From positions 207,261-271,260 of the IMG/VR virus record IMGVR_UViG_3300046692_000091: a stretch of 64,000 nt of DNA; one strand, 5' to 3'. Shown here one piece after another: positions 144 to 41,303 of this stretch. This DNA comes from a virus. Both the position numbers and the translations under genes were made by a program. The notes beneath the pieces are model-generated. The model was given only the letters and a program-made list of their open reading frames with translations, was not told the origin of the DNA and ran no database searches. How positions within the stretch are numbered: the first letter of the stretch is position 1; every line of letters begins with the position of its first letter.

Positions 144-180
144 CGTTTTAGTTCTGCTCCTAAGAGCCTTCTGTCTAGCA

Positions 181-259
181 CGCCCCTACCGGATTTGAAC
201 CGATGACCGATCAACGTATGGTTACCGTCGATTGCTCTACCTAGCTGAGCTAAGGGGCG
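181..259 (-). tRNA. tRNA-like gene with an over-long anticodon loop (identity unclear)
   Basis: The acceptor stem is a perfect 7 bp (CGCCCCT with AGGGGCG). The D arm (GCTC/GAGC) and T arm (TTCAAAT loop) are canonical and the variable loop is 5 nt. The anticodon stem ATCGA/TTGAT encloses 13 nt instead of 7; two extra pairs would leave a 9-nt loop, GTAACCATA. No standard anticodon with U33 and a purine 37 can be read. CCA is not encoded, unlike the other three tRNAs here. It may be a decayed tRNA or a genuine variant. Confidence 0.6.
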
Positions 260-263
260 ACAA

Positions 264-348
264 TGGTGGGTGCAGAAGGATTCGAACCTTCGAAGTCAGC
301 GACGGGAGATTTACAATCTCCTGGGTTTGGCCACTCCCCAACACACCC
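264..348 (-). tRNA. tRNA-Tyr (GTA)
   Basis: The anticodon arm is GGAGA-TTGTAAA-TCTCC with anticodon GTA. It has a long class II variable arm, a GTTCGAATC T loop and acceptor GGGTGTG pairing with TGCACCC, and CCA is encoded at 264-266. Length is 85 nt, as expected for bacterial tRNA-Tyr. Only 4 nt separate it from the aberrant tRNA, so both probably come from one minus-strand transcript. Confidence 0.93.
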
Positions 349-412
349 GTATCAGCAGCAGCCGGTCCACCCGGTCATGAGGTTTTAACTCTTCTGTGCT
401 GATAGTAAAACA

Positions 413-547
413 TTTGAAATTAGCTATGGAGAAAGGCGACTCGTTTTATCTCCTGACTTGTACCCATGCACCCATTATTGATCCACTGGGCGACTCCTTT
501 AGTGTGGATCGGGCTGTACCTTACCGTCGTTGTAAGCTAATTTCAAA
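413..547 (-). ncRNA. Candidate structured RNA between tRNA genes
   Basis: A 13-nt perfect inverted repeat, TTTGAAATTAGCT (413-425) and AGCTAATTTCAAA (535-547), encloses about 109 nt. Inside, GATCCAC (480-486) pairs with GTGGATC (504-510). The octamer GGCGACTC occurs twice (435-442 and 489-496; GAGTCGCC on the minus strand). No open frame or tRNA arms are seen. The minus strand is inferred from the flanking tRNAs. It could be a stable small RNA or a processing element of the tRNA precursor. Confidence 0.45.
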
Positions 548-593
548 ACTAACGAGGCAGTAGAAGTCCGAAGGACCAATACCACCTCTAAGA

Positions 594-670
594 TGGCGCA
601 ACCAGCGGGACTCGAACCCGCGACCTCTTGCGTGACAGGCAAGCATTCTAACCAACTGAACTATGGCTGC
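594..670 (-). tRNA. tRNA-Asp (GTC)
   Basis: The anticodon arm is CTTGC-CTGTCAC-GCAAG, giving anticodon GTC. Acceptor GCAGCCA pairs with TGGTTGC with one G-U pair. The T arm is GCGGGTTCGAGTCCCGC, and a discriminator G plus encoded CCA is present at 594-597. All arms are canonical. Confidence 0.94.
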
Positions 671-773
671 AATAAACTAGTCGCGCTTTAACCCGCGTAA
701 GCTAATAGCCCTGTTATGGCGGGCCGTCCAAATCAAGGGAGTTGAACCCGAGTTCTCGACTAGTTTAAAAAAA

Positions 774-851
774 TGGGGTGAGCTACGGGTCTCGAACCCG
801 TGACCTCCAGGGTCACATCCTGGCACTCTAACCAACTGAGCTAAGCCCAAC
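774..851 (-). tRNA. tRNA-His (GTG)
   Basis: The anticodon arm is CCAGG-ATGTGAC-CCTGG with anticodon GTG. The T arm is ACGGG-TTCGAGA-CCCGT and CCA is encoded at 774-776. An extra 5' G (G-1) opposite C73 fits tRNA-His identity. Pair 1:72 reads T-C, a mismatch in an otherwise good acceptor stem. It is the first tRNA of the minus-strand cluster. Confidence 0.9.
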
Positions 852-3547: not shown

Positions 3548-4306
3548 TTATTCAGCTTTGAACTCAGTCAATGAATGAGTCAACCATTTCAACAAACCAT
3601 CTGCGGTAGGTTGCAGGATGTGAGTGAAGGCTTGGTTGTAATCATAGAAAGCTGCTTCGAAGTCTTCACCGTATTTGTGGAGCTTCTTGAACATCTGATA
3701 AACTTCTGGTGGTGCATTAGTAGCTTCTGCTTCACGATAACGTTTACCGCCTTCGTTATAATGCTTACCTTCAACTCCGAATGTTTTCCAGATGCGCATC
3801 AAGTGCTCATCCCAAAGTTCTTTCTTAAGCTCTACCAGATCTAGGAACGTTTGAGCAATCTTCTTGATCGACCGCTTATCTAAAGGTGGTAGTGTTTGGT
3901 TAACACTAGGCTTAGCTATCTCTACTTTAGGAGTAGGGACATGGAAACTGAAATCCACTTCTTTATTGAAGCGAACAGCATGCTCAGGATCTTTCTCCCA
4001 ACCATGAGCGAAGAGATAACCAATAACCTCGTTGACTGGCTTAAAGCCTTCTTCGAGGAACTGTTTCCCTTTTGCCTTATGCTCCTGGGCGTCACTACGG
4101 ATAGTATCGATGATCGAATGATCAAACTTTGTTAGGTTACCAGGGAAGGCAACCTTAACGGGTTTGTCAGAAAACGTTTGTTGCTTTAACCAACTATCAT
4201 TCATGAATGTAGAACTGATAAGCTTCTTGGCATTCTGATAGTTGTGGTCTCCTACAACAGTAAGGTCTTTAGGCTTACCTCGGAAGAGACCACTTAATGC
4301 TTTCCC
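3548..4306 (-). CDS. Frameshift extension (third domain) of the internal-virion polyprotein
   Basis: This is the -1 frame read after slippage at 4306-4300. From the A codon at 4300 it adds 250 residues to the 616 read in frame 0, giving a predicted 866-aa product. The joined sequence runs VSNEDFGSLGK-ALSGLFRGKPKDL and matches the start of the second domain (VSNEGF...KALFKSKPKEL). NDSWLKQQT, about 35 residues later, is identical in both domains. The open frame extends upstream to an ATG at 4363, but that start has no convincing ribosome site and would miss the conserved VSNE boundary. An independent 271-aa gene is the alternative. Confidence 0.75.
   Translation of the reverse strand, partial: GKALSGLFRGKPKDLTVVGDHNYQNAKKLISSTFMNDSWLKQQTFSDKPVKVAFPGNLTKFDHSIIDTIRSDAQEHKAKGKQFLEEGFKPVNEVIGYLFAHGWEKDPEHAVRFNKEVDFSFHVPTPKVEIAKPSVNQTLPPLDKRSIKKIAQTFLDLVELKKELWDEHLMRIWKTFGVEGKHYNEGGKRYREAEATNAPPEVYQMFKKLHKYGEDFEAAFYDYNQAFTHILQPTADGLLKWLTHSLTEFKAE
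4244..4306 (-). promoter_or_regulatory. Programmed -1 ribosomal frameshift signal
   Basis: The heptamer G GGA AAG (4306-4300) is in the correct phase of the upstream frame. The same heptamer is known from the lambda G/T tail-gene frameshift. It is followed by CAT and the frame 0 stop TAA (a 6-nt spacer), then GTGGTCTC (4293-4286) pairing perfectly with GAGACCAC (4251-4244). An inner GTAAG/CTTAC hairpin lies in the 34-nt loop. Heptamer, spacer and stem all fit the classic bacterial -1 signal. Confidence 0.8.
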
Positions 4307-6147
4307 AACGAACCAAAGTCCTCGTTCGATACTTTCACACCAGAGATCGATTTCTGAATCCAATGTAGCAGTGGCTCAGCTAATCCCTCTACTAGATCGT
4401 AGTAAGAAAACTGGTCAGTATAGAAGTGTTCGTCGAAGTAATCCAGAATGGACTCTACTTCGCTGTGGAGTTGCTTCAGTTCTGATTGCAGTTCACCACG
4501 TGTATCCAGGATCAAATGCATGCGTGAACCATCCGGCCACTTAGCCCCAGGACCAAGGGACTTCTTACCGTAATCCCAGCGGGCTTGCACTAGTTCGATG
4601 ATCGCATTGGTTGCATCTTTGATCCCGGCAATATCCAACGCTGGTAACTCAACTTCAGCATTGTCTTCAGTAAAGTACTGTGGCTCAGAGTAGGCAACAT
4701 CAAAGTCTAGATTGTCGTAAACTACGGTTTCATTAAAGGACTGCACTTGTTCAAGGTTTGCTCCTTTGATGTTGCCACTGACAATCAGATCAACCCCTTG
4801 ACGAATTGGATTAAACCATTTCTCTGACAACTTAGCATTGGTTTGAGCAACCTTGTCCAGTTCTTGGAGGATGCGTTTAACGAGCGGTTTATAATCACCC
4901 TTCATAGCTGCATCTGGGAACCGTACGGTTACATTACCTTCAGTAAGGGTTTGCTGTTTAAGCCAGCTGTCGTTCAACAGTGTCTTTTCAAGTTCCTTAA
5001 AGTGCTCTTTATCAATGCCGTGTTTAAGATCAAGTTCTTTAGGCTTGGATTTAAACAGTGCTTTAATAGCATCCACGAAACCTTCGTTAGATACGGTGAT
5101 CTCTTCATTAGAGACTTTTTTGCCCCCTTTGAAAGAACGTTCCATGTAAACTACAGCAGCGACACACGCATTTTCGAATTGACGGAAGGCGGCCATCGAT
5201 TCTGGAATTCTTGCCGGCATTTTACGAACTAACGCTTCCAACAAAGTATTCCAAGCTTCGGAATTGTAGGATTCACTGTGACGGTCTTGACGTTGGACTT
5301 GGTATTGCGTTTCGTAAAAGTTATCCAGGAGATCATGGATTTCATTATTCGTAGAAACGATGCGACTATGGTCTGCTTTCATCGCAGTGATGATAATGGT
5401 GGCTAGTTCCGTGGTTTCATCTGGAGACAATGCCGGACGAGCTTCATCAGTAGCTTTACCAGTAATCAGGTTCGTCTTGGCACGGGTAGGTTTCTTAGCG
5501 AGCTCCATCATTGGTTTGATATTAGCCACGGCTGCTTTGGCATCATCATACATCTTGTCGGTCAGCTTGGTTGGAGTCCAACTAGAAACTAATTTCGAGA
5601 TCTGTTTAACGACGACCATCTGAGCTGCAATAATAGCTTCTTGGAAGGAATCGTTAATAGCTGCAGTTTCTTTAATCGAACCTGACAAGTTATCTAGTCC
5701 AATACGGTCTGCCAGATCGCCTACTTTAATATTGCCTTTAATTGAGGTCTGTTTATTGACCCACTCTTTATTGGCAAAGGTGTTCTCGATGCTTTTGAAG
5801 ATATGGCTGGCGTTGGCTTTAGCATTACCATCCAATTCCTCGAAGTCCTTACCGCGGTTATGGAACTTGAAAAACTTACGAACGTCTTCGATGATGCTCT
5901 CGTTTGATACTGAGATATCTTCGAACATGTGAGGATCTTGGATGGTATGCTCGGTACAATGCATCTCATCGTCGTCATTAGTAGAACGACCCCCGCCTGC
6001 TGGGGAGTCATCGCCGTGGTGTTGACGGTTGGTATCATCACCATCTTCCGTAGGGACTTGTGGACGGTGGCCAGGGTCTTCCCGAGAATCATCTTCATGT
6101 AGTGGTGGTTCGCTCTCGGCGGCGCCCATCCATTCGTATACGTTCAT
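4294..6147 (-). CDS. Internal-virion polyprotein, frame 0 product (two repeated domains)
   Basis: The 617-aa frame 0 product starts at ATG 6147 (GAAAGGAC upstream). Residues 1-83 are an acidic, His-rich leader. VSNE occurs at residues 80-83, 345-348, 352-355 and 606-609, separating two paralogous domains of about 250 aa (each with a KEWVNKQT/NDSWLKQQT segment) from the third, frameshifted one. The phiKZ head protease is known to cut after S/A/G-X-E, so SNE fits as a cleavage site and the domains may be inner-body or head proteins released by maturation. Function beyond that is unknown. Frame 0 ends LGKH directly after the slippery site. Confidence 0.75.
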   Translation of the reverse strand: MNVYEWMGAAESEPPLHEDDSREDPGHRPQVPTEDGDDTNRQHHGDDSPAGGGRSTNDDDEMHCTEHTIQDPHMFEDISVSNESIIEDVRKFFKFHNRGKDFEELDGNAKANASHIFKSIENTFANKEWVNKQTSIKGNIKVGDLADRIGLDNLSGSIKETAAINDSFQEAIIAAQMVVVKQISKLVSSWTPTKLTDKMYDDAKAAVANIKPMMELAKKPTRAKTNLITGKATDEARPALSPDETTELATIIITAMKADHSRIVSTNNEIHDLLDNFYETQYQVQRQDRHSESYNSEAWNTLLEALVRKMPARIPESMAAFRQFENACVAAVVYMERSFKGGKKVSNEEITVSNEGFVDAIKALFKSKPKELDLKHGIDKEHFKELEKTLLNDSWLKQQTLTEGNVTVRFPDAAMKGDYKPLVKRILQELDKVAQTNAKLSEKWFNPIRQGVDLIVSGNIKGANLEQVQSFNETVVYDNLDFDVAYSEPQYFTEDNAEVELPALDIAGIKDATNAIIELVQARWDYGKKSLGPGAKWPDGSRMHLILDTRGELQSELKQLHSEVESILDYFDEHFYTDQFSYYDLVEGLAEPLLHWIQKSISGVKVSNEDFGSLGKH

Positions 6148-6192
6148 TGTAAGTCCTTTCGGTGTGTGTTGTGATGTATAGGATTGCAACAA

Positions 6193-6223
6193 CATAAGGC
6201 TTCCCCGAAGGGAAGCCAATATG
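6193..6223. promoter_or_regulatory. Bidirectional CATA-hairpin-TATG module
   Basis: GGCTTCCC (6198-6205) pairs with GGGAAGCC (6210-6217) around CGAA. CATA (6193-6196) and TATG (6220-6223) flank the stem as mirror images. On the minus strand it ends the nrdAB transcript and places TTATG 46 nt before the polyprotein start, suggesting a terminator plus late promoter. Confidence 0.5.
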
Positions 6224-6234
6224 CCGTTAGTTCA

Positions 6235-7458
6235 CTACATTGAGACTTGTTCTTTCGGCTGGTAATTATCCAACTTACTCATATCAAAACCTGGGATAGT
6301 GAACTCGAATACTGCATGTTCATTACGACGTGTTAACAGGTTCGTCATGTAGTCGCCTTTCTTCTCTTCCTGTGCAGAAGACTGAGTAGCTGACAACTGA
6401 ATGTACTTGGTCATGTAAGGCAGTGGATTCTTCTCAGGCCACTCAAATGGGAAACCAGCAATCTGTTCGAAGTCCCAGTCAAAGCGGAAGAAAATATCAT
6501 CTTTAACATTCAAGAATTCTGCTGCGGCTTTAGCGTTGAACAGAACCCATTGGATCAGAGACTTAGCAGTAACACCAGTCAGTTCACGACCTTCGGAGAA
6601 TAGGTACAATGCCCATTCAACTTCAGTGCGGATGATTTCCCACAGCAGACGAACGATCTTGTCTTTGCATTGTTCGTAAGCAGTACGCCCACGTTCCGTT
6701 GCAAGCTCAGCGCGCAATACATGCTGACCGAACTGTGCATGGATCTCGAATTCGTCTACAGCGATCTTCTGGACGGCTTTGGTGATCTGTTGGAACATAC
6801 CGGTACGACCGATAGCGAAAGTTACAGCAAACGATGCCATGAACTGAATACGCTCCAGGAAATAGAGTGCAATCAAGAACATGAAAATGTCGTTGTAAGT
6901 TTCTTGACAGTTCTCTACTTGACCCAGGCCATACTTGAGCGAGGTCTCATGAGCCTTAGCCATCACCTCACCGACGATCTTCATTCGGCTATGTGCTTCT
7001 TCTACCTTGAGGATCTCTTCACGGATTTCATCAGGGTCATCGAACGAGCCACGAACGATCTCTGAATAAGTCAGTGCGTGTACACATTCGTTTTCGGAGA
7101 TACGATTGTAACCAGTCCAGATCCGTCCATCGGTGATAACGTTACCCAGTACGGTCACGATCGAACGAGAAGCTACGGAATCCGCTTCCCATTGCCATGC
7201 CAGGGTTTTGATCATCATGTCGTAGACAGACTTCTCGGCATTCTTGAATTCGGCGTTACAAGTAAAGAAGTCGAACTCTAGTTCGTCCCAGTCCAAGTTA
7301 CGTAGTCGTTTGTACAGTGCCCATGCTTCAGGGTGGTTGTGTGTGATCGAATCCAATAGACCCGGATCTTCACCCAAGATGATGTTGTAGGAACCGTAGT
7401 CCCCTTTATTCAGGTTAAAGATTTTTGGTGCGATATCAGCTACAGTGGCTACAGTCAT
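6235..7458 (-). CDS. nrdB: Ribonucleoside-diphosphate reductase, class Ia beta subunit
   Basis: This 407-aa protein is the radical-generating R2 subunit, partner of NrdA in making dNDPs. The diiron ligands are visible: E91 in WQWEAD, E124 and H127 in ENECVH, and a later DEFEIHAQ. The radical Tyr is Y131, four residues after H127 as in class Ia R2. The C-terminus ends YQPKEQVSM, a probable docking tail for NrdA. Start 7458 follows GGAAG with a 6-nt spacer. It lies 49 nt downstream of nrdA in the same operon. Length is normal for the family. Confidence 0.95.
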   Translation of the reverse strand: MTVATVADIAPKIFNLNKGDYGSYNIILGEDPGLLDSITHNHPEAWALYKRLRNLDWDELEFDFFTCNAEFKNAEKSVYDMMIKTLAWQWEADSVASRSIVTVLGNVITDGRIWTGYNRISENECVHALTYSEIVRGSFDDPDEIREEILKVEEAHSRMKIVGEVMAKAHETSLKYGLGQVENCQETYNDIFMFLIALYFLERIQFMASFAVTFAIGRTGMFQQITKAVQKIAVDEFEIHAQFGQHVLRAELATERGRTAYEQCKDKIVRLLWEIIRTEVEWALYLFSEGRELTGVTAKSLIQWVLFNAKAAAEFLNVKDDIFFRFDWDFEQIAGFPFEWPEKNPLPYMTKYIQLSATQSSAQEEKKGDYMTNLLTRRNEHAVFEFTIPGFDMSKLDNYQPKEQVSM

Positions 7459-40802: not shown

Positions 40803-41303
40803 ATGGAACAATATGTGGTACCCTTCGAGAATGCCGTAGCTATGTTCTCGATACCAGACTTCTATGGTTTTAATGAACCGCAGTATCTGGATGTCATCAT
40901 GGAGTTTAATGATGAACGGGATAAGCTGACTGATCTAATTGCCAATGCAATCGTACAAAGGAACGTATACGAGCCTGAGCAGTTCCGTGAGATGATTCAC
41001 ATGGGTTTAGGTTACATGGGGATCGATCCAGACGAAGAGACGTTCTATGCGACTATGGTTCAGTTTGTTCGAAGTATCTGTCTGAAGTGTTCCCCCTATA
41101 TTCTCGGTACAGATCTAAAACTCATTGATGCGATTGAAGATGCGGATTGGGTTAACATCATCTACCGAGAAACTTCGGAACCACAACTATGCTCTATACA
41201 GCAGCCCAACGATTCGACAAGCTTGCCTGGTTCCCTGGCTATAGCAAAGCCCGTAAGTTGTATGGCAATCTCCACCGAGGCAAACCCAATCACAATGAGA
41301 TAG
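40803..41303 (+). CDS. Unknown protein with long 3' overlap
   Basis: A 166-aa protein. Residues 1-125 are helical and acidic; the last 40 (after IIYRETSE) are Ser/Pro-rich and lie wholly inside the overlapping next gene, as if an ancestral stop near 41190 had been lost. It is the first of a run of five small genes with a similar plan. Function unknown. Confidence 0.55.
   Translation: MEQYVVPFENAVAMFSIPDFYGFNEPQYLDVIMEFNDERDKLTDLIANAIVQRNVYEPEQFREMIHMGLGYMGIDPDEETFYATMVQFVRSICLKCSPYILGTDLKLIDAIEDADWVNIIYRETSEPQLCSIQQPNDSTSLPGSLAIAKPVSCMAISTEANPITMR

Follow-up and report, generated by a model that had tools for sequence, protein, structure and literature searches.

A probable -1 ribosomal frameshift beside a predicted protease site in a phiKZ gp303-like head polyprotein gene

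Among the closest described systems is the G/GT gene pair of phage lambda, whose slippery site we take to be G_GGA_AAG. As we propose for the locus described here, a -1 slip near the 3' end of the lambda frame-0 gene gives a minority of the products an extra domain. In E. coli G_GGA_AAG is a highly slippery sequence, one on which tail-chaperone frameshifts rely, and GGGAAAG has been cited for the g-t gene of a haloarchaeal virus (PMC5009743). The lambda products are tail assembly chaperones and are absent from virions (PMC5009743). The present gene, in contrast, belongs to a family of head proteins and has predicted protease sites beside the shift site.

The frameshifts of T7 10A/10B, A2 and PSA extend the major structural proteins of smaller phages, and the extended products stay fused. 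Capsid gene frameshifts are on record for T7 gene 10, phage A2 and Listeria phage PSA (PMC5009743; works cited in PMC10885494). These cases resemble ours in that a frameshift in a head or structural gene yields two products, and differ from it in that ours concerns a jumbo-phage polyprotein of repeated domains lying beside protease sites. The retroviral Gag/Gag-Pol system, in which a -1 frameshift doses the downstream domains of a polyprotein that a virion protease cuts later, offers a further parallel, although the two are unrelated and the extension here is another repeat domain rather than the enzyme. Within the family, phiKZ gp303 and 201phi2-1 gp455 share with the present gene a position after nrdA-nrdB, domain homology, an S-N-E before the domain and, as we expect for our protein, a location in the virion; unlike it, they are single open frames from which the -1 extension with its third domain is absent. 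A search of the open-licence literature found no description of a frameshift in a phiKZ-like head protein, and the paper on Pseudomonas phage D6, an isolate that carries a relative of the gene, does not mention one.

Here we analyse a 64-kb stretch of DNA (the window) from a giant phage of Pseudomonas type, corresponding to positions 207261-271260 of a virus record of 314,814 bases, and compare it with its relatives. We find it very probable, from sequence comparison, that a gene whose product is a head polyprotein like phiKZ gp303 contains a -1 programmed ribosomal frameshift. The mechanism is an ordinary one, and what is likely to be new is its place and its likely coupling to processing by the head protease.

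A polyprotein of related domains

The polyprotein gene is located on the minus strand, after the genes for ribonucleotide reductase alpha (9793-7508) and beta (7458-6235). The order nrdA-nrdB-gene, with the gene directly after nrdB, recurs in D6, Psa21 and RVTF4, and in phiKZ and 201phi2-1 one gene stands between nrdB and the homologue. Four tRNA genes (Thr, Tyr, Asp, His) lie downstream of the structural gene at 180-850 (minus strand) of the window, and phage D6 likewise has a tRNA cluster downstream. Translation puts the TAA at 4296-4294 and gives the 617 aa that an earlier note, made from the sequence alone, had assigned to the frame-0 gene. Its product is laid out as an N-terminal region, domain 1, domain 2 and a tail of 8 residues past the last predicted protease site:

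4294..6147, minus strand: frame-0 coding sequence, 617 aa, from ATG 6147 to the TAA
5899..5907, minus strand: S-N-E where the N-terminal region meets domain 1, a protease site predicted from motif and position
5104..5112, minus strand: additional S-N-E slightly upstream of the boundary between domains 1 and 2
5083..5091, minus strand: S-N-E where domain 1 meets domain 2, a protease site predicted from motif and position
4321..5082, minus strand: domain 2, homologous to domain 3
4321..4329, minus strand: S-N-E where domain 2 meets domain 3, a predicted prohead-protease site shortly ahead of the presumed frameshift; S/G-N-E in all five junction sequences compared below

In the earlier note the -1 frame was seen as restoring the third copy of a domain of which the gene already has two. 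The kinship of domains 2 and 3 is clear (hhalign 98.8 %, E 1e-16), with the main predicted helices and strands in the same order; that of domains 1 and 2 is weak by direct comparison (19 %), though each of the two has a match to PHROG 24656, 'virion structural protein' (E 1.2e-5 and 6.6e-9). With hhalign, domain 1 also finds the C-terminal part of phiKZ gp303 (96.6 %, E 5.6e-10) and 201phi2-1 gp455 (93.5 %). A structural model built for domain 3, with a mean pLDDT of 70, is similar to virion structural proteins from Noxifer and Psa21; its fold found no meaningful match in the PDB, and Pfam gave nothing above the cut-off. No match to tail chaperones was found, the gene adjoining nrdAB and its domains 1 and 2 matching the head family. 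D6 and one metagenomic relative (L007) possess one extra domain of ~270 aa before domain 2, between sites of the S/A/G-x-E type, for which profile comparison with the other domains shows no clear kinship.

The motif of the phiKZ prohead protease is S/A/G-X-E, and cleavages reported in the phiKZ virion map to gp303 among other proteins (PMC10449902). Across the relatives S/A/G-N-E stands at the domain boundaries, with S-I-E at one boundary in L007, and in the genome that carries the window's gene there is also a gene for a homologue of gp175, the phiKZ head protease (61 % identity, E 6e-102). The motif and position of the sites, together with the protease in the genome, are fitting for a prohead-protease substrate. 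Homology and synteny make the gene the positional counterpart of phiKZ gp303 and 201phi2-1 gp455, both virion proteins, the latter recorded as found in the virion by mass spectrometry; with the S/A/G-x-E sites between domains, this supports the earlier description of an internal virion polyprotein.

The putative shift site and its conservation

The elements of the putative signal, all on the minus strand, are as follows:

4320..4323, minus strand: GAGG, possibly Shine-Dalgarno-like, 13 nt upstream of the heptamer
4300..4306, minus strand: slippery heptamer G_GGA_AAG
4294..4299, minus strand: spacer CATTAA between heptamer and stem
4294..4296, minus strand: frame-0 stop TAA
4284..4293, minus strand: 5' arm of the presumed stimulatory stem, GUGGUCUCUU, from folding and comparison of relatives
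4255..4282, minus strand: inner hairpin, from folding; its exact pairs vary among relatives
4244..4253, minus strand: 3' arm of the presumed stimulatory stem, AGGAGACCAC

The sequence GGGAAAG at 4306-4300 is read G GGA AAG in frame 0, the phase given in the earlier note, and the spacer has the 6 nt counted there; the TAA, placed in that note two codons after the heptamer, is in fact separated from AAG by a single codon (CAT). By itself the heptamer is not rare, with 5 occurrences in the 64-kb window against 5.7 expected. Under a stricter definition (an in-frame X_XXY_YYZ at most 15 codons from the stop, in an ORF 150 codons or more in length, followed by at least 100 open -1 codons) the window contains two cases, one in the polyprotein gene and one in an ORF of 166 codons, where AAACCCA lies near the stop at 41282-41288 (plus strand) with 131 open -1 codons.

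Relatives of domain 3 were found in six IMG/VR records and in D6. Three of the IMG/VR loci are identical over 12.7 kb, which leaves five distinct sequences of the domain 2-domain 3 junction: that of the window, D6, L003, L006 and L007. In all five, GGGAAAG occurs at the same codon and in the same phase, the frame-0 stop (TAA in four, TGA in L007) lies 10 nt from its first base, the spacer is of equal length, and 247-252 codons of the -1 frame are open. The fused products share 55-77 % protein identity and their synonymous sites are saturated; therefore recent common descent alone does not explain the shared signal. When the five fused genes are compared in a codon alignment, excess synonymous conservation over 15-codon stretches reaches its maximum for the whole polyprotein in the stretch that runs from codon -4 to codon +10 relative to the heptamer lysine, with a z of 7.15 that serves as a ranking only, the sequence pairs not being independent; the test is a permutation that treats codon columns as exchangeable, and 5 of 10,000 such permutations reach the observed peak. 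In the heptamer the codons GGA and AAG are invariant, as are AGT, GGT and GTA where the stem lies, and the heptamer site is conserved in diverged relatives beyond the need of the protein.

A sequencing or assembly indel, or a true mutation that killed the third domain, would produce an identical break in any one genome, and the window itself comes from a metagenomic virus record. The same break, heptamer and stop distance are nevertheless found in D6, an isolate assembled with A5-MiSeq/SPAdes and Pilon, and in three other distinct metagenomic sequences, one of them present in three records, and the -1 frame, open for ~250 codons, is under purifying selection. The earlier note had thought a sequencing error unlikely; the recurrence of the signal makes an error or a dead gene very unlikely, and we leave next to no probability for either.

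The alignment of homologues that the earlier note had suggested shows the heptamer in every relative found in which domain 3 comes after domain 2. Continuous frames lacking the heptamer, which by the earlier note would have spoken against the frameshift, are confined to relatives without one of these two domains: L002, Psa21, RVTF4, phiKZ and 201phi2-1 have no such -1 extension. Psa21 gp426 and its RVTF4 counterpart are single frames with two domains, the C-terminus of gp426 being exactly ..VNSNE. In L002 (IMGVR_UViG_3300042009_000026, 4816-6753) domain 2 has been lost and domain 1 is joined to domain 3 in one frame, the heptamer being absent, so that this relative serves as a natural contrast. 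The pattern in L002, Psa21 and RVTF4 thus indicates that the frameshift accompanies the domain 2-domain 3 junction. A scan of a collection of bacterial and archaeal genomes found no relatives, and a DNA-level search with the whole gene as query found no phage match at near identity.

Both the 8-bp stem and the inner hairpin described in the earlier note are found, though U-G and U-A pairs extend the stem to 10 bp. In the window sequence a 71-nt stretch folds at -22.6 kcal/mol (z = -3.2, 0 of 200 shuffles), but z varies with the stretch chosen (-3.2 for 71 nt, -1.4 for 86 nt), and stability alone is therefore not taken as proof; in D6, L003 and L007 the hairpin is of moderate stability, 7-15 % of local windows folding at least as well. 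The outer six base pairs keep their pairing in all five sequences, with changes of the G-U type only, and one inner pair is changed on both sides, giving one compensatory pair. This conservation supports the stem, with covariation that is thin at five sequences. An Rfam search gave no match. Stimulatory structures usually begin 5-8 nt downstream of the slippery site (PMC4066793), and the stem, 6 nt from the heptamer, falls within this spacing. The GAGG may have a stimulatory, Shine-Dalgarno-like role, but it is not independent evidence because it overlaps the Asn-Glu codons of the predicted protease site, and these codons show no excess synonymous conservation.

Transcriptional slippage, in which a base is gained or lost in the mRNA, would likewise join the two frames. 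The runs known to cause it are longer than GGG or AAA, the only runs that the site holds, and the conserved stem at a 6-nt spacing fits ribosomal frameshifting instead, so that we consider slippage of the polymerase very improbable.

The -1 frame and the predicted fused product

Beyond the heptamer the -1 frame contains the remaining feature:

3548..4303, minus strand: domain 3 as the -1 frame extension, 251 codons counted from AAA and then the stop, with no consistently placed start

A -1 slip would fuse it to the frame-0 product; translation of the fusion gives 866 aa, the length expected in the earlier note. Domain 3 is under purifying selection, with dN of 0.12-0.33 and saturated synonymous sites. 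In D6, L003, L006 and L007 a TGA blocks the -1 frame 6 nt upstream of the heptamer; therefore the change of frame falls between this TGA and the frame-0 stop, and from the sequences entry to the -1 frame must occur at the heptamer in these four.

We considered whether the locus might consist of two genes, with domain 3 having a start of its own or relying on stop-restart coupling where frame 0 ends. D6 (L008, OQ363659) is annotated in this way at 4498-5247, as two hypothetical proteins of which the second begins at a GTG 147 nt after the heptamer, and the window sequence, alone among the five, has a TTG in the -1 frame 57 nt upstream of the heptamer. In the four sequences with the upstream TGA, however, the first ATG, GTG or TTG in the -1 frame appears 84-147 nt downstream, at positions that differ and lack a clear ribosome-binding site, and no other conserved entry to the -1 frame is present. 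A late start would cut off conserved residues (the GTG of the D6 annotation drops about 49 of them from the second part), and a separate start of any kind leaves the invariant GGA AAG codons unexplained. We accordingly regard the two-gene arrangement as very unlikely and return to the programmed frameshift as the preferred reading.

A proposed scheme for dosing domain 3

In the programmed frameshift that we propose, most ribosomes would read G_GGA_AAG CAT TAA and stop, giving the 617-aa product, and some, delayed by the stem-loop 6 nt downstream, would re-pair both tRNAs on GGG AAA and go on in the -1 frame to make an 866-aa product that carries the domain once more. The prohead protease would then probably cut after S/A/G-N-E between the domains. 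If these sites are cut, both products would yield the same domains 1 and 2 and domain 3 would derive from the frameshifted product only; the dose of domain 3 would then be all that the frameshift controls, its efficiency setting the amount of free domain 3 that enters the head. We infer from this arrangement that the purpose of the ratio would be to control how much domain 3 is packaged.

Release of domain 3 by the prohead protease appears somewhat more probable than its retention. Should the frameshift be real and the longer product stay fused, domain 3 would be an extension comparable to that of T7 10B, and cleavage at the site before the junction is indeed predicted from motif and position. 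Set against this are the S/G-N-E that each of the five sequences has right before the frameshift site, in keeping with the remaining domain boundaries, the termination of Psa21 gp426 directly after S-N-E, and the cleavage of phiKZ gp303 in virions (PMC10449902). We therefore treat permanent fusion as possible but doubtful, and continue with the reading in which the product is cleaved.

With release of domain 3, the locus would represent a scheme like that of Gag/Gag-Pol in a DNA phage: a -1 frameshift right after a maturation-protease site would set the copy number in the head of one repeat domain, freed only after the capsid has assembled. We give this wider scheme about an even chance. The repeat domain whose copy number is so controlled is possibly an injected protein.

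Nothing yet accounts for the proportions in which the heads of giant phages hold their dozens of processed internal proteins. The isolate D6 makes direct testing of the present proposal possible and, if it is true, the frameshift would be a concrete, testable means by which such a phage sets the proportion of one of its head proteins.
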